This document shows positions 29,573 to 60,959 of a stretch of DNA of 64,000 nucleotides, piece by piece. The notes beneath the pieces are model-generated. The model was not told where the DNA came from. It saw only the letters and a list, made by a program, of their open reading frames with translations, and did no database searches. The stretch is from positions 124,001 to 188,000 of the forward strand of contig WGNM01000001.1 in NCBI GenBank assembly GCA_016124575.1, in the 5' to 3' direction. The position numbers were made by a program, and so were the translations under genes. The DNA is from Cryomorphaceae bacterium. Lineage in GTDB: Bacteria > Bacteroidota > Bacteroidia > Flavobacteriales_D > Sanyastnellaceae. How positions within the stretch are numbered: the stretch's first letter is position 1; every line of letters starts with the position of its first letter.

Positions 29573-29591
29573 ATTTCAATTTTCCTCTCAC

Positions 29592-43622: not shown

Positions 43623-44891
43623 TTATTCTGTTACATAAAAAGGAAAATTAGCAGTGGCTACTTTGTCTTTCCCATCGGTGATATAAACAAACAAGCGGTA
43701 TGGGCCTGGTACTGATGGTGCGCTAAACTGCATGGTGCTCTGGTCTTGATAAGAAACGAGCCCTGATAAACTTTTCGGACGTGCTTCTTTGTCACCACCA
43801 GCCCTGATATCAGTGCTTTCAGGCAATATCTCCCACCTCACTTCGATTGGGTCACCATCGGGCTCTTCAACTTCAATTTTGGCTTGTCCACTCGATCCTG
43901 TGGCAAGCTTTACGCTCGATCGCAATGCTTCGTCTTCTAAGCTAAATGACTTCAAAATCGGCGCGCGGTTCGCTGGTTCCGCCTTTTTCCATGAGCGATG
44001 CAAGGCATCCAATGCCCCTGTTTGCTTGCCATCTTCTAAAAATACTCCGTACCATGTCGGGGTGGTTTCTTGCTTTTGACCCCATAAAAAGACGTATGAT
44101 CCAATGCAATGTTCACCATCGGCAGCTATACCTGTGCGGTAACGTGTTTCGTATGCCACTGCTTTCTCACTGCTGGTCTCCTCAAATGGCGCGCCCCAGG
44201 TGGTTTTAGGGACTTCCCAGTGTCCTGTTGGACCCCATTCCGTAACCATATATGGCTTGTCCCAACCAAACATGGCGATGTCGTACTTTAAATTCCCAAT
44301 ACCTCCGTAGGTGTTCACTCCAAGTATATCAATGCTGGGTGCACGCTCTTGAATAAGCTGCACTTCAGCAACGTCAATACCAGCGGTTACAGCACATGTA
44401 GGGTGATTCGGGTCGAGCTCATGTATCATGGCTGCTATCTTCTCTGTGGCATCCCAAACGTTCAAATCACTGTAAAAAAGGTCTACTTCGTTTCCAACAC
44501 CCCACATCAATAAGGCTGGATGGTCTTTAAACTCTTCTACTGCTTTCCTAAAACCAATTAACTGATCGGCAACTGCCCACTCGTCGCTGTAGTTAAAACC
44601 ATGGCGCTCATGTGCCATCCACAACCCCAACATAACGGTGAGTCCGTGGGCCTGGGCGTCGTCTAAAATGGCTTTGGCATTCTCTAATCCCCAAGTGCGC
44701 ACTGAGTTACCTCCGCACTCTACAACTACGTCCATGTGCACTGTGCCTCCCGCTCCGTTTACATAGTAAGGCTGTCCGCCCCGCAACATCTGCCAGCCAC
44801 TTGCGGTGCGCTGCAGCTCAACCTTCACCGGACCAGCAGACATCCCATTTATGGTTATTCCAAAAAGAAATAATATGATGGCTAATCTCAT
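43623..44891 (-). CDS. Secreted clan GH-A glycoside hydrolase (GH2/GH5-like TIM barrel)
   Basis: 422 residues. Signal peptide (1-19), short beta segment, then a TIM barrel with 'NSVRTWGLENAKAILDDAQAHGLTVMLGLWM', acid/base Glu135 in 'LLMWGVGNEVDLF', 'IDILGVNTYGGI', and nucleophile Glu218 in 'PYMVTEWGPTGHWE'. These are the two strand-4 and strand-7 Glu of clan GH-A. Residues ~310-422 form an Ig-like C-terminal domain. The exact CAZy family is uncertain. Last gene of the operon, overlapping the GH16 stop by 4 bp; beta-glucan oligosaccharides are the likely substrate by context. Confidence 0.87.
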   Translation of the reverse strand: MRLAIILFLFGITINGMSAGPVKVELQRTASGWQMLRGGQPYYVNGAGGTVHMDVVVECGGNSVRTWGLENAKAILDDAQAHGLTVMLGLWMAHERHGFNYSDEWAVADQLIGFRKAVEEFKDHPALLMWGVGNEVDLFYSDLNVWDATEKIAAMIHELDPNHPTCAVTAGIDVAEVQLIQERAPSIDILGVNTYGGIGNLKYDIAMFGWDKPYMVTEWGPTGHWEVPKTTWGAPFEETSSEKAVAYETRYRTGIAADGEHCIGSYVFLWGQKQETTPTWYGVFLEDGKQTGALDALHRSWKKAEPANRAPILKSFSLEDEALRSSVKLATGSSGQAKIEVEEPDGDPIEVRWEILPESTDIRAGGDKEARPKSLSGLVSYQDQSTMQFSAPSVPGPYRLFVYITDGKDKVATANFPFYVTE

Positions 44892-46666
44892 GGTACGAAT
44901 ATCTTGCGGACAACCAAATCTTGTCCTGATAGTAACTGAACGAAGTAGATTCCTGAAACCGCTGGTAAGTCGATTTGCGAATTCCCAGGAACAATTTTTT
45001 GCTGATGAATGTTCTGTCCATTAACATTGTAAACGCAAACGTCCCCTGCTATCGATGAGGATATCTGAAGTATGTCATTGCTCATGAATGCTTCAAATGC
45101 GATGTCTGTATTTTCAACAATGCCTATCGGCAGGCATGTGGCATCGTAAACAACTATGTCATCGATGTAAAAGGTATACCCCAAATTCTGAGGTCCAACT
45201 ACACGAAATTCAAGTTGATTGATGGTTGTTGGATCAATAGCAGGTGTAAAACTGCTTTCTTGATTGAATACCATTGTACTCCAAACATACGATGCCGTTG
45301 TGGTCTGCAAGTAGATAGATTGTGTGCCACCTGTGCCATCTGAAATGTTTTCGTTTTGCAAACGGACTTCAACCGTGCTTTCCGGTGGGGCGTTGGTGTA
45401 ATATTTGATGCCCAAAACTTTTTCGCCTGTGTGAAATGCTGTTGCATCGGTAATGCCTTCAACTCCCAATCGCAAGCGAGAAACTTCATTCGGTGGCAAA
45501 CTCCATCGCAGGCAAATTGAGCTGTTGTTAGTAGCATTTGGAGCTGGTACTGGTTCAATTCCCATTCCGCCATTAAAAGATGTCCAATGTGCTCCAAACT
45601 TGGTTTCAAAATCAGTTAAAACGCCAACACATTCATTCAAAACATGAACTGTTCTCTCCACAACACTGGTGCATCCGTTGTTCGAAATGGTCGCTTGCAA
45701 TACTTGATCTCCTGATGCTGTCCATACCAACTCGGCTGTATCACCACTGCTTACTGAAAACGCTGCACCTTCCGATGACCACGTTACTTCAGCTCCCATC
45801 GCGTTGTCGATCGAATAGGTATGTGTTTCTTCTGTCGGTGCGTATGCCGGACCAGAGATAATGGCCATCTCAGGCTCTTGGTATATGCGCACGTAATCAA
45901 CAAACATGCTCTGTGGAAACTGGGTTGTTTCATTGGGGTAACCGGGGAAATATCCTCCCACCGCAACGTTTAACAAGAGGTGAAATGCTTCGTCAAAATG
46001 CCATGGAAATGTGCCCAAGTTGCTTTGGGTGCGTATACTGTACAATTGATCATCGAAATACCAACGGATGGTGTCTTGCTTCCACTCTACGGCGTAGTTA
46101 TGGAAATCTTGATTCAATTGAAACGGGAGGGTGATGTTCTCGCCATTGTACTGGTTGTTCGGCCATTTTGCGCCAAAATGTATGGTGCCAAAGGTGGTTG
46201 ATGGCATGCTACCTATCAATTCGGTAATATCTATCTCTCCAGACAAGGGCCATCGTCCGTAAACCTCATCTTCTGGCAACATCCAAAATGCTGGCCACAA
46301 GCCCTGACCAGTGGGCATCTTGATACTGGCCTCAATGCGCCCTGAGGTAAATGATGCGAAATTTTTTGTCCGCAAGCGCGCAGATGTTACTTCCGGATTC
46401 CCTCCGTCATTAAACTGTGCTGTGATACGCAATAATCCGTCTTCAACGCCCAAATTCTCGGGCTGACCGGTGTACGATTGCATCTCTGCATTGCCCCAGC
46501 CACAAAGGTTCGGACAACCATCTCCCAATTGGATTTCCCACTTCGTGAGATCCAGTGAGGTACCATCAAACTCGTCGCTCCAAACCAGCTCTGAACATTG
46601 ATTCTGGGCACCAAGCTGAATGGCCATTACCGACAATCCAAGTATTATATTGAGTCTCTTCATCAT
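44888..46666 (-). CDS. GH16 endo-beta-glucanase with T9SS type A sorting domain
   Basis: 592 residues. Signal peptide, GH16 domain at about 25-270 ('LVWSDEFDGTSLDLTKWEIQ', 'GWGNAEMQSYTG', 'SGRIEASIKMPTGQGLWPAFWMLP'), with catalytic ExDxxE as E144-I-D146-I-T-E149 in 'GEIDITELIG', and 'LLLNVAVGGYFPGYP'. A PKD-like segment lies near 275-345, then a carbohydrate-binding-like beta domain (~350-510) and a type A sorting domain (~515-592). Laminarinases of GH16 cut internal beta-1,3 or mixed-linkage glucan. Translationally coupled on both sides (4-bp overlaps). Confidence 0.94.
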   Translation of the reverse strand: MMKRLNIILGLSVMAIQLGAQNQCSELVWSDEFDGTSLDLTKWEIQLGDGCPNLCGWGNAEMQSYTGQPENLGVEDGLLRITAQFNDGGNPEVTSARLRTKNFASFTSGRIEASIKMPTGQGLWPAFWMLPEDEVYGRWPLSGEIDITELIGSMPSTTFGTIHFGAKWPNNQYNGENITLPFQLNQDFHNYAVEWKQDTIRWYFDDQLYSIRTQSNLGTFPWHFDEAFHLLLNVAVGGYFPGYPNETTQFPQSMFVDYVRIYQEPEMAIISGPAYAPTEETHTYSIDNAMGAEVTWSSEGAAFSVSSGDTAELVWTASGDQVLQATISNNGCTSVVERTVHVLNECVGVLTDFETKFGAHWTSFNGGMGIEPVPAPNATNNSSICLRWSLPPNEVSRLRLGVEGITDATAFHTGEKVLGIKYYTNAPPESTVEVRLQNENISDGTGGTQSIYLQTTTASYVWSTMVFNQESSFTPAIDPTTINQLEFRVVGPQNLGYTFYIDDIVVYDATCLPIGIVENTDIAFEAFMSNDILQISSSIAGDVCVYNVNGQNIHQQKIVPGNSQIDLPAVSGIYFVQLLSGQDLVVRKIFVP

Positions 46667-48894
46667 CTTACTGTAAATGGTATTACCAGTGTGTCAATTT
46701 GAACGCTGAACTTACCAGGCTCCAACACCCACTTTAAATCTTGTCCTACAAATGCCAATTCCCTCACGGGGATGTCGAAGCGGACTTGCTGTTGCGAGCC
46801 CTCTGCCATTTCAATCCTGCGATAACCGCGTAAGCGTTTTACCGATGGTGTAATAGTCGCGACACTGTCTGAAACATACAATTGCACTACTTCTGCTCCT
46901 GCCCTATTTCCGGTGTTGCTTACTTCTACATCCACCCGCAGGGTGTCGTCCATTCCCAATTCGTTGCGCTCAATCTGCAAACCTGAATAAGCGAAAGTGG
47001 TGTAAGCTAAACCACTACCGAAGGTGTAAAGTGGATCAAAGGCGTTCTGCGAAAAATCAGTATCGATGCGATCGGTGTACTTGTGATCATACGTTGTGTG
47101 CGATGAGGCATGACGGGGATATGTAAACGGTAGCTTACCACATGGATTGAACTTGCCGAAAACTATGTCTGCAATGGCTTCTCCGCCGAAATCTCCCGGC
47201 AACATGGCCAACATAACTGAATTGATTTTCTCAATGGATGCTGGCAAAACACGCGGACGTCCTTCAATCAACAATACCAAACTCGGCAACTGCAAATAGT
47301 CTAGTTTGTCAATTACACGGGCTGATTGCAGTGGTATAGACAAATCTTCAATGTCACCAGGCTTTTCGGTATAGGTAGACTCTGAAATAACAGCAACAAT
47401 GCAGTCGTATTTCTGAGTCATGCGCATACTTAAAAATTCTTGCTCCGTAATCCATTGCACGTTGTCGCTGTGTTGCTGCAATGCTTCGTAAACCGTCGCT
47501 CTATCAGGGGTGTTGTACTGTGGATCCGCTCCTTGCCAGGTGCGTGTCCAACCGCCATTCAATATGTTCAAACTATTCGCTCCATCACCGATAACCAAAA
47601 TCTTCGCGCCTTCACTCAAAGGCAATAGGTTATCGTTCTTCAACAATACTATGCTTTCGTGGGCAGCTTTCAACGCCAATGCGTGATGTTCTTCACTTCC
47701 AAATTTTGGATAGTCAGCAATCGTTGGAACCCCTGTTTCAAACAACCCTAACTTGTACTTCATCTTTAAAATGCGACGCACAGATAGGTCCAATCGTTCT
47801 TCTGTCACGCGTCCTTCAAGAACTAGCTGCTTCAGCAATACTGGAAACTCGAGATCAACGGGTACCATGCTCATATCTATACCAGCGGCTAGAGACATCT
47901 CAATGGCATCTTTGTAGGTCGCAGCAACGCGATGTCGGGTTACAAGGTATTTTATGTCTTCCCAATCGGTTACTGCTACGCCCTCAAAACCGAGTTCGTT
48001 GCGCAAAAGGTCAGTGAGGATGTTCTTGTTAACGTGAACGGGTATTCCGTTTATCTCTCCTGAATTTATCATGATCGACATCGCCCCGGCATCCATTGCG
48101 CGTTCAAATGTCGGCAAGAAATACTCCCTCAATTGTCGCTCTGCTATCCATGCTTGGGTGCGATCTTTTCCGCTCAGGGTGACGCTATAGCCCATGAAAT
48201 GCTTCAGACAAGCGGCAACGTGTGCATCACCAATGGCGTCGCCTTGATAGCCTTGCACCATGGCTTCTCCAAAGTCAGATGCCAATTTGACATCTTCTCC
48301 AAAGGTTTCCCAAAATCGCGGCCAGCGCGGATCACGCGCTATGTCCAACACGGGTGAGAAATTCCAACGGATGCCAGATGCCCGCACTTCATAAGCCGAC
48401 ATCTCAGCCAACTGTCGAACCAACGCGGTGTCCCATGTGGCTGCAAGTGCTATCTGCTGTGGAAACAAGGTCGAACTGTCGGTATACGTCACTCCATGAA
48501 TGGCATCGATGCCATACAAAATGGGTATGCCAAGTCGTGTTTTCGATGCTTTCCGTTGAATGTCTCCAATCATGTCCAACCACTTCTCTCGAGGATATGA
48601 ATGTCCACCACAATTCAATATCGACCCGACATGCAATTGGTTGATTACAACGTCCAACTTGGCGGTATCAATGGTATGCGGCTCACTCAAGGCATAAGGC
48701 TCGCCGTAGCAAACCATGTCGAGGGTGAGCTGGGTCATCTGTCCGATTTTCTCATCTACAGACATCAATGCAAGCAGGGAGTCGACTTTTTTGTCGATTT
48801 CACTGACATCCGCCGCAGGCGCGTGCTCAGAATTTGGTGAGCATGAAAACATGAACCCGATAAAAAATACGAATATGAAATTGGACTTACTCAT
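46663..48894 (-). CDS. GH3 beta-glucosidase lipoprotein
   Basis: 743 residues. Lipoprotein signal (FIGFMFSC, Cys18). GH3 N-terminal barrel: 'VDSLLALMSVDEKIGQMTQL', 'LGIPILYGIDAIHGVTY', 'FSPVLDIARDPRWPRFWETFGED', 'AACLKHFMGYS', and nucleophile Asp310 in 'GFEGVAVTDWEDI'. The C-terminal sandwich has 'LPLSEGAKILVIGDGANSLNILNGGWTRTWQG', and a fibronectin-III-like end domain (~650-743). It should remove terminal glucose from beta-1,3/1,4 gluco-oligosaccharides released by the GH16 enzymes. As a lipoprotein it probably acts in the periplasm or on the surface. Confidence 0.95.
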   Translation of the reverse strand: MSKSNFIFVFFIGFMFSCSPNSEHAPAADVSEIDKKVDSLLALMSVDEKIGQMTQLTLDMVCYGEPYALSEPHTIDTAKLDVVINQLHVGSILNCGGHSYPREKWLDMIGDIQRKASKTRLGIPILYGIDAIHGVTYTDSSTLFPQQIALAATWDTALVRQLAEMSAYEVRASGIRWNFSPVLDIARDPRWPRFWETFGEDVKLASDFGEAMVQGYQGDAIGDAHVAACLKHFMGYSVTLSGKDRTQAWIAERQLREYFLPTFERAMDAGAMSIMINSGEINGIPVHVNKNILTDLLRNELGFEGVAVTDWEDIKYLVTRHRVAATYKDAIEMSLAAGIDMSMVPVDLEFPVLLKQLVLEGRVTEERLDLSVRRILKMKYKLGLFETGVPTIADYPKFGSEEHHALALKAAHESIVLLKNDNLLPLSEGAKILVIGDGANSLNILNGGWTRTWQGADPQYNTPDRATVYEALQQHSDNVQWITEQEFLSMRMTQKYDCIVAVISESTYTEKPGDIEDLSIPLQSARVIDKLDYLQLPSLVLLIEGRPRVLPASIEKINSVMLAMLPGDFGGEAIADIVFGKFNPCGKLPFTYPRHASSHTTYDHKYTDRIDTDFSQNAFDPLYTFGSGLAYTTFAYSGLQIERNELGMDDTLRVDVEVSNTGNRAGAEVVQLYVSDSVATITPSVKRLRGYRRIEMAEGSQQQVRFDIPVRELAFVGQDLKWVLEPGKFSVQIDTLVIPFTVR

Positions 48895-50044
48895 TGATAT
48901 CTATGCTTATATTTCTCATCTCTACCAATCCGCTACCTTTTGTTAAAACGATGAGCTGCTTCAATTTCGAAACGTTCAAATTCTTGTATCCTTTAAAATC
49001 TTCAAATGGTATACTCACACGTAACCATTGACTCTCGAGCATGGCCCCGTTCAAAGTTTTTGAATCCAACTCTATACTGGCGTTGGTGTAATCGTAGCTT
49101 TCAAGGGTCAAGGTGATCGGTAGCTTGGTAACTCCTGCATCGCTCAAATTTCGAATTTCAAAGCTCACTGCAGCGCGATCAGCCGTTGCCGACATGTTCG
49201 CAGCCTTCCAATTCGTCCAGCTCAATCCCCAGCGATACCAATAGCAGTCGTCGCAATCTTCCCACTGCATCCGAATAACTCCGTCGTTACCGATCTTGTC
49301 GAAATATCTTCCTTTGATGCTTCCTAGTCCCCAAATCTTTGTATCGGTAGATTTCATGAGGTCTACAGTTGCATTCGTAGACACCACACTTGGTGGAAAG
49401 ACTTTCTTGTTCGCAATCTGCCGATTAACCTGCGGCTCTATGCGAATATTGTCCATCAATAGGTTGCCAGACCCTTGCAACTCGATAACGAGCTGTTTGA
49501 TGTTCGTCAAGTCTATTCCGCATGTCTTGTAATCGAAAGCACTCAAGGGCAATCTGCACTCTTGCCACACGGTGTCAATGGGGTAACGCTCAATGCAGCC
49601 TGCACCGGCAACTCCGGCAGACATAGTAGTTCCGTAATCTTCAAGCAAGAAAATCATGGTCGGTATCGGCGATATTCCTTCCGCTGCGCGGATATTAAAA
49701 ACAAATTCACCGTATTCCATTACTTCAGACATGTCTTTGGCCTGCCAGCCCGACCATCCAATTCCAAAACCTACCCAGTCACATGTGGTTTTATTCCAAT
49801 TCAAATGCAAAACAGTTTGATGGGCGTTGTCCATCCGCACTTCCTGAAAGTCTTTGCAGGCGTCTTTCTCCAATCCCCAAACGTCGGTGGTTGAGTTCAA
49901 AAATACCTGCCGAGCACCAAAAAAATTGAATGCTTGCGACTTGGTGATCGGTGCAGCGGCGCTGTCGTCGAGGGTGAGGCTCTGAAAACCAATTCCACAC
50001 CCTGAAAGCAAAATCGATAAGATTAAAATTCTTACGGTGCCCAT
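48887..50044 (-). CDS. Surface lipoprotein with two duplicated carbohydrate-binding-like domains
   Basis: 385 residues with a lipoprotein signal (ILILSILLSGC, Cys16). The mature protein is two copies of one ~165-residue beta-sandwich: 'VWGLEKDACKDFQEV...WNKTTCDWVGFGIGWSGWQAKDMSEV...FVFNIRA' and 'IWGLGSIKGRYFDKI...WEDCDDCYWYRWGLSWTNWKAANMSAT...VSFEIRN', each ending in 'LTNIKQLVIELQGSGNLLMDNIRI' or 'VSKLKQLIVLTKGSGLVEMRNISI'. The fold resembles CBM11/CIA30-type glycan binders, but I cannot assign a family. It sits where a SusE/SusF-like surface glycan-binding protein would be expected. Overlaps the GH3 start by 8 bp. Confidence 0.85.
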   Translation of the reverse strand: MGTVRILILSILLSGCGIGFQSLTLDDSAAAPITKSQAFNFFGARQVFLNSTTDVWGLEKDACKDFQEVRMDNAHQTVLHLNWNKTTCDWVGFGIGWSGWQAKDMSEVMEYGEFVFNIRAAEGISPIPTMIFLLEDYGTTMSAGVAGAGCIERYPIDTVWQECRLPLSAFDYKTCGIDLTNIKQLVIELQGSGNLLMDNIRIEPQVNRQIANKKVFPPSVVSTNATVDLMKSTDTKIWGLGSIKGRYFDKIGNDGVIRMQWEDCDDCYWYRWGLSWTNWKAANMSATADRAAVSFEIRNLSDAGVTKLPITLTLESYDYTNASIELDSKTLNGAMLESQWLRVSIPFEDFKGYKNLNVSKLKQLIVLTKGSGLVEMRNISIDINE

Positions 50045-51084
50045 GGTGTGTATCTAGTGAAGTTGCAATAATCAAGTCCGTAACCTACAAACCCTGTCGT
50101 TCCCTCCCTTGCCAATAAGAGATATTCTATGCTCGCAATGCGATCTATGTTTTGCACTCCGGTGCCGTCGATGTTCCCAAAACCAGCTACTGTGCTGAGG
50201 TTAAACTCATCCAAGCGGATAGATACTACTTTCCATCCAAGCCAATCGACAACGATTTCTCGGTTGTAAGTACCCTCCGTAAAGCGGTCATAGGTGCCAT
50301 CCAAATTGTCATCTTCCTGAAGCCCTATCGATAGTCGGGTATTCCCATCTCCAAAACCATGCACCAGCATGTTCAGGTACACGTGCTGCGAATTGGTTGT
50401 TCCTACGTTGAAATAGGTTCCTGCTGGTGTCTGACTGCTATTGGCTGCCGAAATGCTGGTACCACAAATGAATACGCTGCTTTGGTTCAAATAGGTCATA
50501 CGCCAATGTCCCGACCCTTCTGGTGCCACGACCTGGATAAACGAGGGTGTGGCACTGCTCGGATCTTGCACAAAATAGGGTGTTGTCGCCAACTGATTTG
50601 TGGCGGGTGCTTCTGCAAATGATCCCCAACCTCCGGCTGTTTCAAAGTCTGAAATGAGGACGTCAATGTTGGCTTCCGGACGCACGGATTCAATGTATAT
50701 GGTATCTCCCCATAAGGTATCCGGATAACTGGCAAAGGTCATCATGGTCATGCAATTCTCCGCTTCAAACAAGGGCGCGAAGGTTATGGTGCCATCCCAA
50801 ACGGCTACGTCGTCGGCAATGCTGCGGTCACGACCTGTAATTTCTTTCTTAGCGCCGCTGGTCATGCCTATTATAGATATGGTCCAATCGGTGCGAATGG
50901 TCAACTCGCCATTGAAACGTACTTTTTGTCCCAATGAAAAATCAACGGTGTCGCGATCAGCACTCAAGGTTTCGATGACGTCAAATTCACCAAAAATATC
51001 TTGTAGCTCAGGTCCTTCGATCTTATCGGGACGACAGCCGGCCAATACGACCATCAATCCGAGCGTGAGGTAAATACTTTTCAT
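50032..51084 (-). CDS. Lipoprotein with Ig-like and glycan-binding-like domains
   Basis: 350 residues from the ATG at 51084 (MKSIYLTLGLMVVLAGC, Cys17); the start shares one base with the upstream stop (TGATG). Residues ~45-145 look like an Ig-type domain ('VRFNGELTIRTDWTISIIGMTSGAKKEITG'), and ~150-350 a beta-sandwich with 'VLISDFETAGGWGSFA', 'YLNMLVHGFGDGNTRLSIGLQEDDNLDG', 'WLGWKVVSIRLDEFNLS' and 'IEYLLLAREGTTGFVGYGLDYCNFTRY', similar in style to surface glycan-binding proteins of PULs. The domain order (Ig-like then binding) resembles SusE, but this is inference. Confidence 0.82.
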   Translation of the reverse strand: MKSIYLTLGLMVVLAGCRPDKIEGPELQDIFGEFDVIETLSADRDTVDFSLGQKVRFNGELTIRTDWTISIIGMTSGAKKEITGRDRSIADDVAVWDGTITFAPLFEAENCMTMMTFASYPDTLWGDTIYIESVRPEANIDVLISDFETAGGWGSFAEAPATNQLATTPYFVQDPSSATPSFIQVVAPEGSGHWRMTYLNQSSVFICGTSISAANSSQTPAGTYFNVGTTNSQHVYLNMLVHGFGDGNTRLSIGLQEDDNLDGTYDRFTEGTYNREIVVDWLGWKVVSIRLDEFNLSTVAGFGNIDGTGVQNIDRIASIEYLLLAREGTTGFVGYGLDYCNFTRYTPWAP

Positions 51085-52853
51085 CAGAAAAACATGTTGT
51101 AGGTAACAATTACTTGATTCCACTTGTAGTTAGATCCAACAATGTTGCGATCTTCTATGTTCGAAGTGCGCGCCTGAATCAATAAGTGGTTGTTCTGTGT
51201 GAACGAATATTTAATTCCACCAAACCAGGTCTGATCCATCATATCGATGTCGACCTCGGTGTAATCGGTAATGTATGAGTATTGATCTCGAACGCTCAAA
51301 TACTCATTTCCTTTGGCACTCAGCAACACCAATCCTCCCTGCAAGTAGAAATGATCAGATAGTTCATGCGAAATGGATGCTTCTATAAAATTCGAAGCAA
51401 GGGTTACGGCTCCTATTCCGCTCAAACTGGCGATGTCTGATGTCAATCCATCTCGGTTGGTAGATTCTGAATGGATGTGCAGCTCTCCCATGGTCTCCTT
51501 CTTTCCTTCCCAAATGTTATGCAAACCAAGTCCGGCTCGTACATCTGCCAAAAAGAAGTTGCGGTAGGTGTTGATGCCTTCCCCACTCACTTCGGTGAGG
51601 TAGGCTACGTCGGCATCTATGTATGCGCTGCTTGATGAGTCGGCCTTAAACGATATACCTCCGCGAATACCTTGTCTGTTCGGTGTGGCTGCCCCATACG
51701 GCAATACGTTCGAATAGGCTGGATTGAAGGTTTGCAAAGAAGCAGAAATGGTTGATTGATAGACGTTTGGGTCTTGATACAAGTCAAACACGCTCAATGC
51801 ACGTGGCGTTTCTTGGTTGGTTTGAAATGTAAAGACTTCTGGTGCTGTGCTGTAGTTCACTTGGCGTGATTGTGCACCCGGACTTCTGAATCCTGCTTTG
51901 ACGTGAATGAATTCGCCGTAAAACTTCAATTTGCTGCTGGCGTCTACTTTGCGTATTCCCAATTGCAAAAATACGTCTCCTGTATCTGCCGGGGCGCCTT
52001 CTTTCTCTTTGTATTTGGTGCCCGACATTCCCATTTCTCCATATAAAACCAACGGTTTTGATGTGAAAGGCATCACCTCAAAATTAAGGGTCTGCACGGT
52101 GATAGAAGTAGTAGCATCTGAAAATTGTGCGGTCTCGGCGATCTCGAATAGACTTACATAACGATAACCAATATGTCCCAATTCTTTGCGGTGGAAATCA
52201 AACTGCCCTCCGCCTAACATGCGGTCTGGCGTAAAGAAATAATCCGATTGTCGATTTTTGGTTATGAATCCATAAACGTCCAATCTATTCCCTTCACCTG
52301 GCAGTCGCAATTTAAAGTCTGTCTCAGCACCTTGCTGCCTCCATCGGTTGTCGCGATAAAAATGCTCGTAATCAACGATGTCGCGATAAACATGCAATGG
52401 AGACAATCTGCCATTCAACAAATCACCACCGGTGTTGTAAAGGGTAAATGGCGTTAGCTTCACATCCAAGTCGCCAACGCGGTAGCGCACTTTTCCTTTT
52501 ATGACGCCTCTCGCATACAATTCGCGGAAACCAAAGCCAATACCTGCTCCCCAAAATCCGTCGAGCTCGCTGCGCACGCGTGTGAGTACTTTGATTTCTG
52601 TTGATGCATTCGGACGCAAACGGAATCCCAAATCGAAAAGGGCATACCCTTGAATCTCTCGTCGGGCATTTACGCTATCTGCCGCCAATGTGTCTCCCGC
52701 AAACACTCCTCCTTCATATCGGTCTCCTTGTGCCTTATTGGTCTGCATTACAAATCGTCCAGAGCCATACACACTGAACTTATCATCCTGCCCAAAAAGG
52801 GACGATGTAAGCAGCAATAAGCTGAAAAGTATATAGTTAAATTTCATCTTCAT
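51084..52853 (-). CDS. Outer-membrane beta-barrel protein of the glucan operon
   Basis: 589 residues. Signal peptide (MKMKFNYILFSLLLLTSSLFG), no plug and no CarboxypepD-regulatory domain, repeated alternating hydrophobic strands ('GYALFDLGFRLRP', 'KVRYRVGDLDVKLTPFTLY', 'LYGEMGMSGTKY', 'IEASISHELSDHFYLQGGLVLL', 'WFGGIKYSFTQNNHLLIQARTS') and C-terminal '...QVIVTYNMFF', with the terminal Phe used for barrel insertion. It is not a TonB receptor and I do not recognise the family. By position it could be the oligosaccharide porin of the locus. One-base overlaps with genes on both sides. Confidence 0.85.
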   Translation of the reverse strand: MKMKFNYILFSLLLLTSSLFGQDDKFSVYGSGRFVMQTNKAQGDRYEGGVFAGDTLAADSVNARREIQGYALFDLGFRLRPNASTEIKVLTRVRSELDGFWGAGIGFGFRELYARGVIKGKVRYRVGDLDVKLTPFTLYNTGGDLLNGRLSPLHVYRDIVDYEHFYRDNRWRQQGAETDFKLRLPGEGNRLDVYGFITKNRQSDYFFTPDRMLGGGQFDFHRKELGHIGYRYVSLFEIAETAQFSDATTSITVQTLNFEVMPFTSKPLVLYGEMGMSGTKYKEKEGAPADTGDVFLQLGIRKVDASSKLKFYGEFIHVKAGFRSPGAQSRQVNYSTAPEVFTFQTNQETPRALSVFDLYQDPNVYQSTISASLQTFNPAYSNVLPYGAATPNRQGIRGGISFKADSSSSAYIDADVAYLTEVSGEGINTYRNFFLADVRAGLGLHNIWEGKKETMGELHIHSESTNRDGLTSDIASLSGIGAVTLASNFIEASISHELSDHFYLQGGLVLLSAKGNEYLSVRDQYSYITDYTEVDIDMMDQTWFGGIKYSFTQNNHLLIQARTSNIEDRNIVGSNYKWNQVIVTYNMFF

Positions 52854-54823
52854 TAGAAAAATACCTTGAGTTCAATTGTGGTCTCGGTGCCACTGATCTT
52901 ATCTTCTACAAAATGGCTGTCTGCCTGATTGAATCGTTTGTGGCGGATATACAATCCTGAATGCTCCGACATTTTAATGTCGACACCAAGTCCTATCGAA
53001 TGGGATGTTTGATCCAAATATCCTGGCGCCCCAGTCGTCGCTCCTGCATAACTGCTTCCAGGAATGGCTGTGCCTTCCAATCCGTAATCGGCAAATGATG
53101 CCGCCGCGCTAACATTGGCACCAGCCAAATTTCCATCAACATCAAAATAATAGAGGTTGTTGGTCTGGTCGTTGGCTTGAATGCGCTCCAATCCGTATGC
53201 GAGGTCAACACCAAACCAATCGTTGATCGGGATGATGATGTCGAACTCATGATATCCGGTGCGCAAATAAGCCTGATCGTTCAATTTAGGAACGATCGAA
53301 ATCTTGTCGCCTACGCTGCCCAAAGAGCCGAGGTAAAGGACATATATGTCTTGTTTTCCGATCTCAAATTTGTGCTTCAATTGGAATTGGAAGGTGTTGA
53401 AGGCGAGCTTCTGAAAGGGCAATCCTGCTGTATCTACATCTGTTATGAAGACGTCTTCAGCTACGCCACGATAAAAGGATGTCCAACGTCTGTACGGACC
53501 GATTCCAGCTGCGAAAGGAGCAAATCGTGAAAGCGCCAACCCGTTGATCTTATGTCCGAATGATAAGCGATTGGTCGTTCTCTCCATCTCTTGAGAAACC
53601 ATGTTCCCGAAGTTTATAGTGGTATTCTTAAAATTGAACCACATGTTCACTGATCCCCCTTGTCTGTTGTTCAAGATCTGACCAACGTCGGTAATGCTGC
53701 CCACAAAATTTGAAGCACCTCCTCCTCCAGAAACGTTCTGCAACTGTCCGTCGCCCAATATCTGGGTGTTGAAACTCAAGAAATTGCCGTAGTAGTTGAC
53801 AAACTGTGGCGAAAGTCGAAAGACTTCAAACTCAATCGGAACTTTTGGTAACAATTCTTTGAGGCGCAGATTCAAACGAATGCCTTCTCCCCAGCCTTCA
53901 TTTTGGACTGTCGAATACAATTGTCCTACCCCTCCCTCTGCATTGAATGCTATCTTGTCGTTCTCATAACTGGCAGAAAGGGTGTTGATGCTGATTCCAC
54001 CTCTTTCCGTTGCAATGGAATCAAGGTAAACGACGTAATTCATGCTGTTCACTCCAACCATCCCTTTTGTAAAGGTTTTGTTGATACGTCCACCGGCGGT
54101 GAAATTCGGACTTTCAGCACCCAGCACTGCGGTTGTTGGAGTTTTACCATACAATAGTCGCGCATTGATGCCGTATGGCAACTCGTCAAGATCTATGAGC
54201 ACTCCTTTAAAGGCCTGCATCGCCCATCTGCTCTCACGCGAGATGTCGCCGTATTGCATGTAATTCTGAGCGCGATCGGCCCCTTGAGCGTTTCCTTCCC
54301 AGGCCCATCGTTCAAACAGGCTGAATCGGTTATAACCTACAAAACTCGAAAACACCATGCCCGATACATCGGTCCAGTTAATACCGCCTATCTGAAATCC
54401 CAAACGGGCAAAAGAGGTGGGCACGGTGCCATAAAGACTAATTCCTAAGTTCAAGTTCGATGGCACTTGTCCAGGTATCCCAACTGCGTTAGAATAGAGG
54501 GCGTAATCCATGTTGATGGCTGCGCCGCCTCCCGGACGAATACCGGCTGTCATGAGCAAGATGGGCGGATCTCTGTATACGTCTCCTAAGCCAAACACAT
54601 ACGGTGGTGTGTTGGCAAACTGATTGTCTGGCAATACGCGATACCCCGCATCTAAATTCCTATTGAAGCCATAAAAACGATAATATCCTCCCACCGAAAA
54701 TCCGTTCTTGCGCTGAATAACTTTATAGCGATTCAAGGTTTCTGGCTTCCAAGACAAAGTGTCGTCTTGCGCTACTCCTGCGTATGAGGATAAAATGGCG
54801 AGTATTAGTAAAAGCTTCCTCAT
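52853..54823 (-). CDS. Second outer-membrane beta-barrel protein of the glucan operon
   Basis: 656 residues. Signal peptide (1-18), then 'FSVGGYYRFYGFNRNLDAGY', 'INMDYALYSNAV', 'FARLGFQIGGINWTDVSGMVFSSFVGYNRF' and many further amphipathic strands, with a C-terminal '...ETTIELKVFF' barrel end. Gly-rich and aromatic throughout, no plug domain, no TonB box seen. It is not clearly homologous to the 589-residue barrel beyond general style. The start overlaps the symporter stop by 4 bp, and the stop shares one base with the next start. A channel for glucan fragments or a scaffold for surface enzymes are both possible. Confidence 0.85.
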   Translation of the reverse strand: MRKLLLILAILSSYAGVAQDDTLSWKPETLNRYKVIQRKNGFSVGGYYRFYGFNRNLDAGYRVLPDNQFANTPPYVFGLGDVYRDPPILLMTAGIRPGGGAAINMDYALYSNAVGIPGQVPSNLNLGISLYGTVPTSFARLGFQIGGINWTDVSGMVFSSFVGYNRFSLFERWAWEGNAQGADRAQNYMQYGDISRESRWAMQAFKGVLIDLDELPYGINARLLYGKTPTTAVLGAESPNFTAGGRINKTFTKGMVGVNSMNYVVYLDSIATERGGISINTLSASYENDKIAFNAEGGVGQLYSTVQNEGWGEGIRLNLRLKELLPKVPIEFEVFRLSPQFVNYYGNFLSFNTQILGDGQLQNVSGGGGASNFVGSITDVGQILNNRQGGSVNMWFNFKNTTINFGNMVSQEMERTTNRLSFGHKINGLALSRFAPFAAGIGPYRRWTSFYRGVAEDVFITDVDTAGLPFQKLAFNTFQFQLKHKFEIGKQDIYVLYLGSLGSVGDKISIVPKLNDQAYLRTGYHEFDIIIPINDWFGVDLAYGLERIQANDQTNNLYYFDVDGNLAGANVSAAASFADYGLEGTAIPGSSYAGATTGAPGYLDQTSHSIGLGVDIKMSEHSGLYIRHKRFNQADSHFVEDKISGTETTIELKVFF

Positions 54824-56511
54824 GCGATTCCCATTGTGCTAAATACAATCCAAACCACTGCAACAGCCACAAGCAAAATGATGCTCAACAAAATGTCGTT
54901 GCGCACCGAATTCCCCATTCCTGTTATTACCGATCCGCTGCCAACTGTGAGGTGGTCTATCTTCTCACTTTCTTCCTGGGTGGATGTTAAACTGATGCCA
55001 AACAAGACAAATGAGCATATCATAAACAGCAGCAATGCGAAGTGAAGGAAGTTCATGTCGACGATCATCGATAATATGGAGTCGTGCGGAAATTGAAAAT
55101 AAATCTCTCCCGCTTGGTTGGGTGTCTTCAAAAACTCAAAAACCAACCTTCCAACGCCGATGATAAATCCTGACCACAATGCCCACAGTGCCCCGCGGGA
55201 ATTCACTCGGCGCGAAAGTATTCCAAACAAGAATACTGCTGCTATTGGCGGTGAAATATAGGCTTGTATGCTTTGCAGGTATTTGAACAATCCACCTTCC
55301 GACATCATGTTCTCCATCAATGGTATCCAAAGCAATCCTATCACAACCAAAATGGCTGTTGAAAGCTGTCCAACCAAAACGAGTTTCCTATCTGATGTTT
55401 CAGGTCTCCAAATCTTAAAAAAGTCGAATGTGAAAAGTGTCGAACAAGAATTAAAGACGCTGCTCAGTGAGCTCATCAAGGCAGCCAACAATCCTGCTGC
55501 TACTAGTCCTCGTAACCCGCTTGGCAAATAGTTCTTTACCATAGATGGCAATGCTGCGTCGTGCACCACTTTTCCTGATTCGTCGAGCAATAAGGTGCCG
55601 TCTTGGGTGTGCAAGGCAAATGCGACAACGCCTGGAAGTACAAACAAGAAAATAGGTAGCAATTTCAAAAATGCCGCAAAAATAGTCCCTTTACGAGCGT
55701 TCGATTGATCTTTTGCCGACAATACGCGCTGCACGATAAACTGATCGGTACACCAATACCAAACGCCTAAAATAGGCGCTCCGAAAAGTATACCTGTCCA
55801 CGGATAATTGGTGTCTGACGATGGACGCCACAAATTCAAATAGTCGCCAGATTTGCTGCCGGCACCAGCCGAAATGGAAGCTCGCAACTCCGACCATCCG
55901 CCGAGTTCTGAAATCCCAAAGTATGTAACTACCACAGCTCCGCCAATTAAGACGAACATCTGAACCATGTCGGTATAAACTACGGCACGCAAACCTCCAA
56001 AAATGGTATACACACCGGTGGCTACAACCACCAAAACGGCTCCTGTCCAAAACTCTATGCCCAGCAATTGTTCGAAAACCAAAGCTCCCGCAAAAATGGT
56101 TACAGATATCTTTGTTAAGATGTACGCGACAATTGATATGATACTCAAATAGTTACGCGCTCCTCTTGCATATCGCTTTTCAAGAAACTCGGGCATGGTG
56201 AAAACGCCACTGCGGAGGTAGAATGGGACAAAAAACCATCCCAGCAGCAACAATATCAGTGCTGCAAGTATCTCAAATTGTCCGTTTACAAAATCTCCTC
56301 GCGATCCTGATCCAGCCAATCCTATCAGGTGCTCGCTGCCTATGTTGGAGGCAAACAAGGAAGCACCAATGACAAACCAACCTGAATTTTTTCCACCCAA
56401 GAAATAACCAGAAGAAGAGACTTCTTTCCGTTCTTTTTTGGTAACAAAAAATGCTACCGCAAAGACGAGGATGAAGTATGCAAAAACGATTGCGTAATCT
56501 AAAATGCTCAT
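54820..56511 (-). CDS. Sodium/solute symporter (SSS family, SGLT-like)
   Basis: 563 residues with about 14 transmembrane helices. SSS signatures: 'YFLGGKNSGWFVIGASLFASNIGSEHLIGLAGSG', 'YLRSGVFTMPEFLEKRY', 'TGVYTIFGGLRAVVYTDMVQMFVLIGGA', 'YWCTDQFIVQRVLSAKD' and 'GLVAAGLLAALMSSLSSVFNSCSTLFTFDFF' with the Na2-site Ser residues. The 'NIGSEHLIGLAGSG' and 'WCTDQFIVQR' motifs are those of sugar-transporting members such as vSGLT. It should bring glucose or short oligosaccharides into the cytosol with Na+. Second gene of the operon, 2 bp after the first. Confidence 0.94.
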   Translation of the reverse strand: MSILDYAIVFAYFILVFAVAFFVTKKERKEVSSSGYFLGGKNSGWFVIGASLFASNIGSEHLIGLAGSGSRGDFVNGQFEILAALILLLLGWFFVPFYLRSGVFTMPEFLEKRYARGARNYLSIISIVAYILTKISVTIFAGALVFEQLLGIEFWTGAVLVVVATGVYTIFGGLRAVVYTDMVQMFVLIGGAVVVTYFGISELGGWSELRASISAGAGSKSGDYLNLWRPSSDTNYPWTGILFGAPILGVWYWCTDQFIVQRVLSAKDQSNARKGTIFAAFLKLLPIFLFVLPGVVAFALHTQDGTLLLDESGKVVHDAALPSMVKNYLPSGLRGLVAAGLLAALMSSLSSVFNSCSTLFTFDFFKIWRPETSDRKLVLVGQLSTAILVVIGLLWIPLMENMMSEGGLFKYLQSIQAYISPPIAAVFLFGILSRRVNSRGALWALWSGFIIGVGRLVFEFLKTPNQAGEIYFQFPHDSILSMIVDMNFLHFALLLFMICSFVLFGISLTSTQEESEKIDHLTVGSGSVITGMGNSVRNDILLSIILLVAVAVVWIVFSTMGIA

Positions 56512-56513: not shown

Positions 56514-57908
56514 TTAGTTGGTTGTTGTGCCGAACACAACTTGCTTATGAGCAACTTTATCTCCTGCGGTTAAGCGCAATACGTAAACACCTGATGCCAA
56601 ACCTTCAACAATTGCTGAGTTAAGACCTTTGGTAGATAAGGTTTGGACAATGCGACCAGATAGATCAATCACTTCCAAGAACTCAACTGCACCTGACGCA
56701 TCCCAAGTAACCTGCATGGCTGTTGTTGCCGGGTTAGGAAATGCATTGAAGGTGAAATCCGATTCTTCAGAAACACTAACCTCAGTTACCAATTTCAAAT
56801 TATCAATGTAAAAGGTCTCTGCCAATGGCTCTCCTGGAGCAATTAACAAAACGAAATTGGTCGCATTTGGCAATCCTGTCATTGCTGCTAAGTCCATTGT
56901 CAATGTCTCCCATGTGTTACTCGCTGTTGAAGTCAGGTTGAAGAGCCCGAGCTCCAATCCAAAATTGTCTTGAATAGAAAAGACAATGTTTGTAGGGGCA
57001 TTCGGATCGTAAAAATCAAAAGACAAGGTGGTGAGCGGCAAGATGTTCAAGGCTCCGTTGAAGTCGCCAACAATTACATCGTCAGTTGCTCCTCCATTGC
57101 GAGCATACTCCAATACGTTCCCTCCAACTGCTAAATCGGGATTCGGGAAGATGCTCAAACGTCCGTCTTTGTATTCTACATCAAAGCGATCGTTCTCACA
57201 ATCAGCATCCATCAACATTTCAAGGTCGGTGTTTGCTTCGGTGCAAGCTTCGGTAACCCGGGCAGGGCCCGACAAGTTGTCGAAGTAATAGTTCTCGTTG
57301 ATGTTCACTCCTGGATTAAACAACAACACCATTTGATCTACGTCGTTGTTAGCAGTATTGGCATCTGGCCACCATCCTGAGTTTGATGGATCCATCCACG
57401 GCTGACCCGTCAATGAAAAGGTAAGCGTCTCCCATTGGCCACCCGTGGTAGTCACCGCCTGATATTCGCTATGTCGACCTTGTGGATATCCTCCGAGTGA
57501 CAATAGATTGTTCTGCAATGATATCTGGATCGTAATGCCCGGTACCGGCGCAAATACATCCATGGTCATTTGATTGGCTCCCGAAAGATGTCCACTCAAA
57601 TCAGCCAAATCTCCACAATTGATTAAGATAACATCGTATGTCTCTGAAGCATTCCGCGTATACTGCGCACACATGTCGCTTGAGTTCACGCCATTAGCGC
57701 CTGGATTTTCAATATACTGAAGAAAGGTTCCGTGCCAACCTGGCCATATTGTCCCCCCTATTCCGTTCTGCAACTGGTCAGGAAATGGAACATTCAATCC
57801 ATAAGTCACGTTCCGAACATCGTCAAATGTGTCGTACATAACCTGTGAAGTCGTTGTTTGAACCATTGCAAACAAACATGAAGCTAAAATTGTAAATCTC
57901 TTAATCAT
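56514..57908 (-). CDS. T9SS-exported protein with tandem carbohydrate-binding-like domains
   Basis: 464 residues, first gene of the glucan operon. Signal peptide (MIKRFTILASCLFAMVQTTTS). Two beta-sandwich domains at about 24-200 and 225-375, each with 'MTMDVFAPVPGITIQISLQNN...GGQWETLTFSLTGQ...VDQMVLLFNPGVNINENYYFDNL' or 'LSFDFYDPNAPTNIVFSIQDN...NTWETLTMDLAAM...NFVLLIAPGEPLAETFYIDNL'. A type A sorting domain is at ~388-464 (AFPNPATTAMQVTW...VIDLSGRIVQTL...GVYVLRL). It probably holds glucan at the cell surface, but no catalytic residues are visible. Confidence 0.88.
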   Translation of the reverse strand: MIKRFTILASCLFAMVQTTTSQVMYDTFDDVRNVTYGLNVPFPDQLQNGIGGTIWPGWHGTFLQYIENPGANGVNSSDMCAQYTRNASETYDVILINCGDLADLSGHLSGANQMTMDVFAPVPGITIQISLQNNLLSLGGYPQGRHSEYQAVTTTGGQWETLTFSLTGQPWMDPSNSGWWPDANTANNDVDQMVLLFNPGVNINENYYFDNLSGPARVTEACTEANTDLEMLMDADCENDRFDVEYKDGRLSIFPNPDLAVGGNVLEYARNGGATDDVIVGDFNGALNILPLTTLSFDFYDPNAPTNIVFSIQDNFGLELGLFNLTSTASNTWETLTMDLAAMTGLPNATNFVLLIAPGEPLAETFYIDNLKLVTEVSVSEESDFTFNAFPNPATTAMQVTWDASGAVEFLEVIDLSGRIVQTLSTKGLNSAIVEGLASGVYVLRLTAGDKVAHKQVVFGTTTN

Positions 57909-58118
57909 AAAGGTTCTAGATTTGGGTGAGACAAGGTAACACGAAAGTCATACATACAGTTAAAATAGACTACATCAGAATTTCATCTACTAAATTCTTT
58001 ACTACATCATTGGTACTTCATTCGGTCTTAAAGCTACTACTAACATGCTGAAATCAAGTTTTTTATCAGATTTTATTAAAACTTATCATTGAATTGTTAT
58101 TCATCTTATCTTAGTAGC
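57909..58118. promoter_or_regulatory. Divergent control region of the glucan locus
   Basis: 210 bases between the operon and its regulator. ACTACATCA occurs twice in direct orientation (57969-57977 and 58001-58009), 32 bp apart or about three helix turns, with the related CATCTACTA between them. TATCTTAG (58107-58114) ends 4 bases before the regulator ATG. On the minus side TACCTTGT lies near 57932-57939. Candidate regulator binding sites. Confidence 0.45.
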
Positions 58119-60959
58119 ATGCGCTACAATCTATTTCAACTCTCGTTCCTTACCATGTGCGTTTTGATGTATCAAACGATGTGGTCTCAACAAGCCGGTA
58201 GCCCGAATATTATCAATTTCTCGAAGTCCGACTTCCAAGGTGGTTCCCAAACCATGGAAATTCAGCAACTGCCCAATGGCTATATCTGCGCAGCAAACAA
58301 CCATGGTTTGCTGATTTTTGACGGTACTTCGTGGCAATGCTTCCGTCAACCAAATCAAACCATCATGAGGTCAATTGAGGTGGTGGGAGAGCGTATTTAC
58401 TGCGGCGGACAAAATGAACTCGGCTACTTTACGTTCGAAACGGGGAAAGCAAAATACAACTCGCTACTTCACTTACTGCCGCCTTCTCTTTCGAATATCG
58501 GCGATGTCTGGCAAATTCAAACGGTAAATGACAAGTTAATTTTCCGGACGTCTGAGCAGATATTCAGCATTGAAAATGAGAAACTTACTCTCCTCGCTGA
58601 AAACGGTGAGTTTAAAAGCTCGTTCTTCTTCGCACAGTCGTTCTTCTTCCAAAAAGACAATGATGTATTCTCCCTCGAAGATGGCAAGGCTTTTATATCG
58701 CTTGAAGCGGATGCCATTGTGAAGGGGTGCATCGTTAGCAATGCCGATACGGTAATCGTAACCGAAAAATCTGGATTGCTAAATTTGTCAAAAAACAATG
58801 CTGCTGCCGCTTTCTCTGGCTCCCTCCACACGCTGCTTTTGGATGCTGGCGTAAATGCGTTCTATGCCATCGATCAGGGATACGCTTTCTGCACGGCGCG
58901 TGGTGGTGTAATTCTGTCTGACCAAAACCTTGTCGTAACAGGGGCTTACACCATTGAAGAAGGTATGCAACGAAATGATGTACTCTGCCTTTTTAGTGAT
59001 GATCACGGCGATCTGTGGGCAGGTACAAGCAATGGTATCGATTTTATTACGCAAAGCTCTCCGTTTCGATATATCCATCCTGACGGACGTTTATTGGGTG
59101 CCGGGTACGCTACTGCCCTATTCAATGGTAGAATGTACTTCGGGACCAACAATGGTGTCTATGAAACATATTACAATCACCTCGCGAATCAGGATTTTCA
59201 ACTGCTCAATGGCACGGTCGGACAAGTTTGGGGTCTTAAAAACATTGCTGATCTGCTGTGGGTCGCACATCATGAAGGACTATTCTACTACAATGGTACA
59301 ACTCTGAAAAATGTTTCGGGTTTAAGTGGTGTGTGGGATGTCCAAGAAATACCCGGACATGTTGATCATTTGCTGGTGGGACATTACAATGGTATCAGTT
59401 TAATTGCGCTTGAAAATGGTGAATGGAGGTTGAAAAAGTCGTTCGATCAACCCGCACAGTCTGCTCGTATATTCGCCCGTGAAAACAACAACACATGGTG
59501 GATATCTCACCCTTACGTTGGTTCATGGCGCTTCTCTATCAATACGTCGAATTGGGAGATGGAGTCAATAAAATTCTATGGTGAAGACGAGGGGTTTCCT
59601 TCAAACCTCCACATCCACGTAGCAAACATCGCTGATGAAATGGTTTTTACGGCCGAAAACGGACTGTTCGCCTACGATTCGAAAAGCGATCGCATTGTGG
59701 AATTACCCGACTTCAATAACCTTTTCACTGGTAACCAACGTTTCCTCCGTCTGTACGATAGCCCCAACAATGATGTATGGTTTATTACTGAAAAAGAAGC
59801 AGGCATCATCGCTATCGAAGAGTCTGCGCTTGTGAAATCGGCCAATAAACACACGATAACTCCTCTAAAATCAAAACTCGTTGGTGGTTTCGAATTGATT
59901 GCCTTTGTAAATAACGAATCTGTGATCGTTGGCGCTGAAGATGGTTTCATTCACGTCAATTACCCGCAACTGGAAAAGGTATACCTGGAAGGCCCGAAAA
60001 TCTCTATCCGGAGGGTTGAGGTGATTCACAAATCCGACTCTACTATATTCGACGCTCTGGCTAACAATGATTCGTCGTTCACGGTGTCGTACGATCAACG
60101 GTCGCTGAGATTTGGATTTACGAATACAAGCTTCCATATCGCCAAAGACATCGATTACCAGTTTAAGTTGGAGAAATTTGATGTCGATTGGGTCAATTGG
60201 GACAACAGCTTCTCGAAAGAATATACCAACCTGCGCGCAGGTGATTACACGTTTAATGTCCGCGCTGTATCAGCCGATGGCACTGAACTTTCTCGCTCTA
60301 GCATCCCATTCACTGTCTTACCTCCTTGGTACATGACAACAACAGCCATCGTGGGTGGTGTGCTGCTCTTTATCTTCCTCATTACGCTGTTCGTATGGGC
60401 GCCAAAACGAAAGTATGAGCGTGAGAAATTGGCTATTGTGACCATGAAAGAAAAGGAATTTGATGAACACAAGGCGCAAAGTGACTATGTGATCGATAAA
60501 CTAAAAAATGAAAAGCTGGAGGTCGAAATCGGTCACAAAAACAAGGAACTGGCGTCGGCAACAATGCACTTGGTGCAAAAGGGACAAATACTGCAGAGCA
60601 TACGCGATAGCTTGCAAGAATTTGATCCTTCGTCAGGCGATAAAGCGAAAAAAGAACTGCGCCGTTTGGTGAAGTTGATCAATGATGATATCAAACTAGA
60701 CAACAACTGGGATCAGTTTGAATTGCATTTTGATCAGGTTCACGTGGATTTCCTAAAACGTCTGCGAGCGGCATACCCAAAGCTTACTCCCAACGATCAC
60801 AAGCTCTGTGCATACCTACGCATGAATCTGTCAACAAAAGAAATAGCGACCATCCTCAACATCTCTGTACGTGGTGTTGAAATTAGTCGCTATCGTCTTC
60901 GCAAAAAGTTAGATCTCGATACCAACGATAATCTAACGGAGTTTATCACAAACCTCTAA
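58119..60959 (+). CDS. Propeller - Y_Y_Y - LuxR-type one-piece regulator of the glucan locus
   Basis: 946 residues from the ATG at 58119; a TTG ten codons upstream is less likely. Signal peptide, a periplasmic two-component-regulator propeller (to ~640, with 'LWAGTSNGIDFI', 'MYFGTNNGVYETYYN', 'LWVAHHEGLFYYNG'), Y_Y_Y domain (~655-735, 'DIDYQFKLEKFDVDWVNWDN...AGDYTFNVRAVSADG'), one transmembrane helix (~755-775), a cytosolic coiled coil and a C-terminal LuxR-type helix-turn-helix ('LTPNDHKLCAYLRMNLSTKEIATILNISVRGVEISRYRLRKKLDL'). It has no kinase or receiver. Such proteins are thought to sense oligosaccharides in the periplasm and control neighbouring genes directly from the membrane. Transcribed away from the operon. 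Confidence 0.92.
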   Translation: MRYNLFQLSFLTMCVLMYQTMWSQQAGSPNIINFSKSDFQGGSQTMEIQQLPNGYICAANNHGLLIFDGTSWQCFRQPNQTIMRSIEVVGERIYCGGQNELGYFTFETGKAKYNSLLHLLPPSLSNIGDVWQIQTVNDKLIFRTSEQIFSIENEKLTLLAENGEFKSSFFFAQSFFFQKDNDVFSLEDGKAFISLEADAIVKGCIVSNADTVIVTEKSGLLNLSKNNAAAAFSGSLHTLLLDAGVNAFYAIDQGYAFCTARGGVILSDQNLVVTGAYTIEEGMQRNDVLCLFSDDHGDLWAGTSNGIDFITQSSPFRYIHPDGRLLGAGYATALFNGRMYFGTNNGVYETYYNHLANQDFQLLNGTVGQVWGLKNIADLLWVAHHEGLFYYNGTTLKNVSGLSGVWDVQEIPGHVDHLLVGHYNGISLIALENGEWRLKKSFDQPAQSARIFARENNNTWWISHPYVGSWRFSINTSNWEMESIKFYGEDEGFPSNLHIHVANIADEMVFTAENGLFAYDSKSDRIVELPDFNNLFTGNQRFLRLYDSPNNDVWFITEKEAGIIAIEESALVKSANKHTITPLKSKLVGGFELIAFVNNESVIVGAEDGFIHVNYPQLEKVYLEGPKISIRRVEVIHKSDSTIFDALANNDSSFTVSYDQRSLRFGFTNTSFHIAKDIDYQFKLEKFDVDWVNWDNSFSKEYTNLRAGDYTFNVRAVSADGTELSRSSIPFTVLPPWYMTTTAIVGGVLLFIFLITLFVWAPKRKYEREKLAIVTMKEKEFDEHKAQSDYVIDKLKNEKLEVEIGHKNKELASATMHLVQKGQILQSIRDSLQEFDPSSGDKAKKELRRLVKLINDDIKLDNNWDQFELHFDQVHVDFLKRLRAAYPKLTPNDHKLCAYLRMNLSTKEIATILNISVRGVEISRYRLRKKLDLDTNDNLTEFITNL

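Follow-up and report, generated by a model that had tools for sequence, protein, structure and literature searches.

The 64,000-nucleotide stretch of a Cryomorphaceae bacterium genome analysed here (contig WGNM01000001.1, positions 124,001 to 188,000; hereafter the window) contains an operon for beta-1,3-glucan (laminarin-type) degradation in which two adjacent genes, encoding proteins of 656 and 589 residues (B656 and B589), are followed by a gene for a lipoprotein (LP363). We propose, with a probability of roughly 55%, that these three products form an outer-membrane module that takes up beta-1,3-glucan oligosaccharides independently of SusC/SusD. The host genome is that of a marine-type member of the Bacteroidota. 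With its carbohydrate-active enzymes, glycan-binding lipoproteins, transporter and presumed regulator, the operon is a polysaccharide utilisation locus (PUL) in the broad sense, and on sequence comparison it is underlain by two protein families lacking a Pfam or NCBIfam match. Recurring as a set throughout a bacterial order and in a second class, the pair and its neighbours suggest a different route for algal sugar across the outer membrane.

B656 and B589 are distant homologues

Neither B656 nor B589 had a match in Pfam (E ≤ 1), in NCBIfam or, by sequence, in the PDB; of the two family profiles, one returned no PDB entry and the other a single one, at E = 0.31. An earlier note made from the letters of this DNA had called the two proteins outer-membrane barrels of unrecognised family, and these searches agree with it on the family. 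As far as searched, the pair is also unreported in the open-licence full-text literature.

Family alignments were assembled from sequences that we selected among the fetched loci, comprising 26 B656 (A1), 25 B589 (A2) and 20 LP363 (A5) members. Profile-profile comparison of the B656 and B589 families with hhalign yielded a probability of 97.7% (E = 1.4e-12, 487 columns), against 0.1-0.3% for two reversed and five column-shuffled controls. Because of this difference, the two proteins are most likely ancient paralogues with one common fold. Scanning members singly against Pfam at E ≤ 10 revealed weak matches to OMP_b-brl in six of the 25 B589 homologues (best 8.5e-5) and a weak match to DUF2490 in one; among the 26 B656 homologues, one matched OMP_b-brl at 0.0079. 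No SusC or plug domain was matched in either protein with Pfam or NCBIfam, and hhalign of the pair against this genome's SusC reached only 0.9-1.4%. The barrel-like DUF6029 (PF19494) proteins of Bacteroidota resemble the pair in size and strand alternation, and were considered as a parent family. This candidate was rejected, since hhalign with the genome's single PF19494 protein gave 0.1-0.2%, like the reversed controls, and Pfam returned no hit.

Conserved gene order and glycan context

Transcription of the operon runs on the reverse strand from a gene for a protein with a type IX secretion system (T9SS) tail through a sodium:solute symporter (SSS) gene, B656, B589, LP363, a gene for a CBM30-containing lipoprotein and genes for glycoside hydrolases (GH) of families 3, 16 and 158 (Table 1). 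Reading the junctions from the sequence, B656 and B589 have one base in common (TAATG), as do B589 and LP363 (TGATG), while the symporter gene, upstream, overlaps B656 by four bases (ATGA); the LP363 start is the ATG at 51084, not the GTG given in the list of open reading frames (ORFs). The signal peptides, C-terminal phenylalanines (MFF, VFF) and single-base overlaps reported in the earlier note for the 589- and 656-residue genes were thus borne out by the ORFs and junctions, and overlaps of this kind may point to a fixed stoichiometry of the products, as the note held.

Gene context was compared across 66 distinct pair loci, the window included, after excluding L116 (a duplicate of L090), L117 and L124 from the tallies. 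These loci also supplied the neighbour-gene profiles, that for GH16 being made from two window sequences only, and Pfam scans of representatives identified sulfatases and the sulfatase-activating enzyme. B656 is followed by B589 in 66/66 loci and B589 by LP363 in 65, the remaining locus being cut by a contig end; a CBM30-type protein is the fourth core gene in 60. Within 12 kb of the pair lie GH158 (57 loci), GH3 (37), GH16 (35), sulfatase (14), an NrtR/AraR-type regulator (23), a Y_Y_Y-type regulator (12) and SSS (10). At least one of GH158, GH3, GH16 and sulfatase is found near 61 of the 66 loci, and the other five (L072, L087, L102, L103 and L138) lie on short contigs or where a contig ends. 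The placement of an outer-membrane-type pair inside a glycan operon therefore extends well beyond the window, and homologues are not found mostly outside glycan loci, an outcome that the earlier note had named as one that would count against it.

The proximity of GH158 suggests that the usual substrate is beta-1,3-glucan. Strict specificity for glucan, as envisaged in the earlier note, is not supported: L084 and L093 are second copies in which the three-gene core persists alongside GH3 and sulfatases, with neither GH158 nor CBM30; the core is therefore reused with other enzymes. With 21-28% identity to the window, both copies rank with the most divergent, and they accompany sulfatases or CBM_4_9. 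Two pair loci occur in several genomes (L074/L075, L083/L084, L092/L093 and L155/L156).

Distribution and co-inheritance

Among 101 genomes of the host's family, B656 homologues are present in 53, B589 homologues in 52 and both in 50. Three genomes have B656 only (G421, G431 and G469) and two B589 only (G409 and G463); by coordinates, all five break at contig ends. In a sample of the phylum the two families occur in the same five of 395 genomes, and in the class of G219 (below, the distant class) the pair is present in 8 of 146. Across the order, family genomes included, B589 was detected in 74 of 199 genomes and 32 of 62 genera. Neither plasmid-borne copies of the pair nor relatives on viral contigs were found. 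One B589 homologue (L122; G447 contig 59, ~6689-8400) is split by an in-frame TAA, through either an assembly error or a broken copy.

Mirror-tree analysis of 37 loci, from which L074 was left out, yielded pairwise-distance correlations, with shared descent not removed, of 0.95 for B656/B589, 0.93 for B656/LP363 and 0.82-0.83 for the pair members and GH158. Co-inheritance of B656, B589 and LP363 is obligate. The pair is also present in 51 of the 52 family genomes positive for GH158; the exception, G461, is 84% complete, and the other eight sampled members of its genus have the pair. In the distant class, GH158 occurs in 44 of 146 genomes, including all eight with the pair.

Outer-membrane-type sequence features

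Several features of the two families, the weak OMP_b-brl matches among them, are those of outer-membrane barrels. More discriminating than strand alternation along the whole protein, the C-terminal 10-mer alternates in the manner of a beta-signal in 25 of 26 B656 and 25 of 25 B589 sequences, against 7/20, 10/27 and 10/30 in three soluble families; a terminal phenylalanine is present in 24/26 and 19/25, against 1/20, 0/27 and 0/30 in the same soluble families. Family members have signal peptides, as judged by eye. Beyond residue 120, hydrophobic helix-like segments (Kyte-Doolittle threshold 1.6) appear in 0/26 B656, 1/25 B589 and 8/8 symporters, and cysteine is scarce in the pair families (66/27694 and 19/25136 residues). 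B656 and B589 are thus likely to be outer-membrane barrels.

LP363 is characterised by an [E/D]GPxLxD motif a few residues past the lipid-box cysteine, with the Cys, G and P invariant in 20 of 20 aligned sequences. In 34 of 46 members at least two acidic residues (D/E) occupy positions +2 to +6, resembling the K-(D/E)2 motif described as a lipoprotein export signal in the relevant part of PMC5080379; this resemblance makes surface exposure of LP363 plausible. The N-terminal motif could also serve for docking to a barrel. No SusD match was found for LP363 in Pfam (E ≤ 1), and its profile against the PDB produced only matches of E = 0.054 or weaker, none of them named SusD. Homology between LP363 and the CBM30 lipoprotein is not claimed (hhalign 12.3%). 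At three high-GC distant loci (L087 14367, L088 14664 and L115 12851), a protein encoded upstream of the pair shows weak LP363-like similarity (37-43 bits); that of L087 is T9SS-tailed and belongs to cluster c16.

Relation to SusC/SusD systems

The closest described counterpart of the operon is the 1,3-glucan locus of Bacteroides (1,3GUL), which in B. uniformis is described as comprising SusC, SusD, surface glycan-binding protein B (SGBP-B), GH16, GH158, GH3 and a regulator (PMC7157763). Judged from the portion of that source describing the locus, both systems combine a two-component-type regulator and a surface glycan-binding lipoprotein with enzymes of families GH16, GH158 and GH3 at a single locus. 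They differ in that the Bacteroides locus has a SusC TonB-dependent transporter with SusD, whereas the window has the homologous barrel-like pair with no plug or TonB domain; compared with the components given there, the window adds the SSS symporter and T9SS-secreted proteins. Going beyond the earlier note, the pair members are homologous, belong with a lipoprotein and occupy the SusC/SusD place of Bacteroides 1,3-glucan loci.

SusC/SusD was absent among the scanned genes of the window operon (Pfam, NCBIfam), which is therefore not a PUL in the strict sense of one with susCD. Like SusC/SusD (TIGR04056, PF07980), the pair is a two-gene outer-membrane unit central to a glycan locus and reused with different enzymes; unlike it, the pair members are mutually homologous and have no SusC, plug or SusD match, and the lipoprotein gene is a third one, unrelated to them. 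A laminarin PUL lacking susCD, predicted as 'variant 1', has likewise been described in an NS4 metagenome-assembled genome, and the passages on that locus name no replacement outer-membrane module (PMC10108472).

Within the family, PUL-type SusD (at least 60 bits, a threshold set after viewing the scores) was detected in 10 of 55 genomes with the pair versus 36 of 46 without it (Fisher p = 1.8e-9, phylogeny ignored), and stratification by genus gave a Cochran-Mantel-Haenszel p of 0.021. GH158 was found in none of the 36 genomes that have PUL-type SusD and lack the pair.

Proposed mechanism and alternative readings

Under the proposed uptake role, GH16, secreted by the type IX system, would cleave beta-1,3-glucan at the surface, where LP363 and the CBM30 lipoprotein would keep the chains. 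B656 and B589 may pair into a pore or channel complex, to whose mouth LP363 would dock through the N-terminal EGPxLxD motif, and oligosaccharides would pass through this complex into the periplasm without a TonB plug. Periplasmic GH158 and GH3 would then release glucose, which the Na+-coupled SSS symporter would carry inward, and the divergent regulator would sense the products. More tentatively than the uptake role itself, the module may represent a second Bacteroidota architecture for glycan uptake independent of SusCD and TonB, in which a heteromeric channel of paralogous barrels is capped by LP363 docked through its motif, and whose core is reused in one order as well as in at least one further class.

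Several observations weigh against this proposal. The many amphipathic strands of the earlier note are there, with alternation 1.69 and 1.72 times a shuffled null in the pair, the same level as in a DUF6029 protein and a SusC barrel; however, the beta-sandwich lipoproteins encoded at these loci come close to it (LP363 1.62, CBM30 1.45), and we therefore reject strand alternation as proof of a barrel, since it does not discriminate. AlphaFold2 models from three-sequence alignments provided no usable structure (predicted local distance difference test scores of 25.5 and 27.9), so that the barrel assignment stands on sequence features. The SSS symporter, whose co-occurrence with the pair the earlier note had proposed to look for, is present in too few loci (10/66) to be a rule. 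The post hoc SusD threshold and the neglect of phylogeny in Fisher's test count on the same side, as do the ten family genomes carrying both the pair and PUL-type SusD, on account of which replacement is not strict. The genome also has TonB receptors and a SusC/SusD pair elsewhere, so uptake could proceed through an unlinked receptor. Finally, we had predicted that GH158 loci lacking the pair in the distant class would carry SusCD, and this failed: among 20 large neighbours scanned from 12 such loci none was SusC or SusD, the assigned ones comprising MFS sugar transporters, one GH94-like enzyme and other proteins. The rest were unassigned. In these loci (L157-L168), GH158 lies beside the MFS transporters and proteins of 1131-1264 residues with no Pfam match at 1e-5, which from their size and neighbours may be beta-1,3-glucan phosphorylase-type enzymes.

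The main rival, which we judge unlikely, is that the pair anchors or exports surface lipoproteins, as a display scaffold or a Slam-like translocator, and that sugar enters by other means. The near-invariant position of LP363 after the pair (65/66 loci), the conserved N-terminal motif beside its lipid anchor and the LP363/B656 distance correlation of 0.93 would all fit such a role; against it, Pfam returned no Slam-type match, and a dedicated exporter would need no linkage to glucan enzymes. A general export route may moreover suffice, given the 34 of 46 LP363 members with acidic residues like those of the signal described in that part of PMC5080379.

Two further readings are improbable. If the pair were ordinary nonspecific porins sitting by chance in the operon, the barrel-type sequence features would be expected, and porins are often large and of no known specificity; yet the pair is absent from 46 of 101 family genomes, glycan enzymes lie beside all loci other than those cut by contig ends, the two homologues always come with LP363, and housekeeping porins would not follow GH158. 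Alternatively, an unlinked TonB-dependent receptor may import the glucan oligosaccharides, with the pair as an accessory for sensing or retaining products. Besides its TonB receptors, the genome has one SusC/SusD pair on contig 44, the window being on contig 33, and in the distant class, GH158 loci lacking the pair also show no recognised linked outer-membrane glycan transporter; this genome's one SusD, next to SusC, is nevertheless weak (37.6 bits) and of a type that most family genomes share whether or not they have the pair. It is very improbable that the module builds or exports a surface glycan, a role that large barrels lacking TonB plugs also serve for polysaccharides, because the pair is surrounded by genes for a symporter, hydrolases, sulfatases and a sulfatase-activating enzyme, and Pfam scans of the window operon and ten neighbour clusters contained no glycosyltransferase or polymerase.

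Other features of the window

The genes of the operon and its flank are listed in Table 1. The window GH158 aligned over residues 11-420 to PDB 9oro, annotated as 'Glycoside hydrolase family 158'. The divergent regulator presumably has propeller, Y_Y_Y-like and LuxR-like parts.

Table 1. Genes of the glucan operon and adjacent genes, in window coordinates
Feature	Position	Strand	Evidence
T9SS-secreted protein, possibly glycan-binding	56514-57908	-	T9SS tail 3.3e-14 (NCBIfam); SGBP_B_XBD 0.019, below cut-off (Pfam)
SSS sodium:solute symporter, inner membrane	54820-56511	-	Pfam SSF 6.8e-91; TIGR00813 2.4e-113
B656, 656 aa, barrel-like, first of pair	52853-54823	-	Signal peptide; C-terminal ELKVFF; no family match
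B589, 589 aa, second barrel-like protein, ends MFF	51084-52853	-	Signal peptide; distant homologue of B656
LP363, lipoprotein, probable surface glycan-binding or docking partner	50032-51084	-	[E/D]GPxLxD soon after lipid-box Cys
CBM30-containing lipoprotein, probable surface glycan-binding protein	48887-50044	-	Pfam CBM30 3.2e-15; lipid box LSGC; SGBP_B_XBD 0.0011, below cut-off (Pfam)
GH3 beta-glucosidase type, probable lipoprotein (lipid box by eye)	46663-48894	-	Pfam GH3 3.4e-74; NCBIfam exo-beta-1,3/1,6-glucosidase model 500.7 bits, under that model's cut-off of 1330
GH16 laminarinase type, type IX secretion tail	44888-46666	-	PDB 3azx laminarinase 7.8e-58; T9SS sorting domain 31.3 bits (cut-off 23)
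GH158 beta-1,3-glucanase type, signal peptide, no lipid box (by eye)	43623-44891	-	PDB 9oro 6.8e-101, 6pal 6.5e-79
Divergent regulator, presumably two-component-type	58089-60959	+	ORF; relatives in 12/66 loci within 12 kb
Second GH16-like protein	61008-63113	-	ORF; similarity cluster shared with first GH16, cluster also chained by T9SS tails

Elsewhere in the window, at 26272-29651, an 845-residue protein that we take to be a TonB-type receptor adjoins what is presumably a small lipoprotein; the two look like a further uptake pair with no link to the glucan operon. At 5203-13619, a 300-residue protein resembling PorP/SprF adjoins one of 2505 residues, a couple that we assume to be a typical T9SS/gliding surface pair. 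In ten of the first 37 pair loci fetched, GH3 is followed by a member of cluster c9, represented by a 276-residue protein (L078 16596-17426) that has no Pfam match at 0.01.

Significance

Uptake of glycans in Bacteroidota is treated as nearly synonymous with SusC/SusD, and marine surveys find polysaccharide loci by susCD counts; PULs are, for instance, defined by susCD or susC in the relevant part of PMC10108472. Laminarin-type glucan is an abundant marine carbon source. The module gives a testable role to two families with no Pfam or NCBIfam match, and raises the question of how oligosaccharides could enter through large pores that have no TonB plug. If it is true that a whole group of families uses another outer-membrane module for laminarin-type glucan, such loci would be overlooked and glucan turnover would be underestimated.

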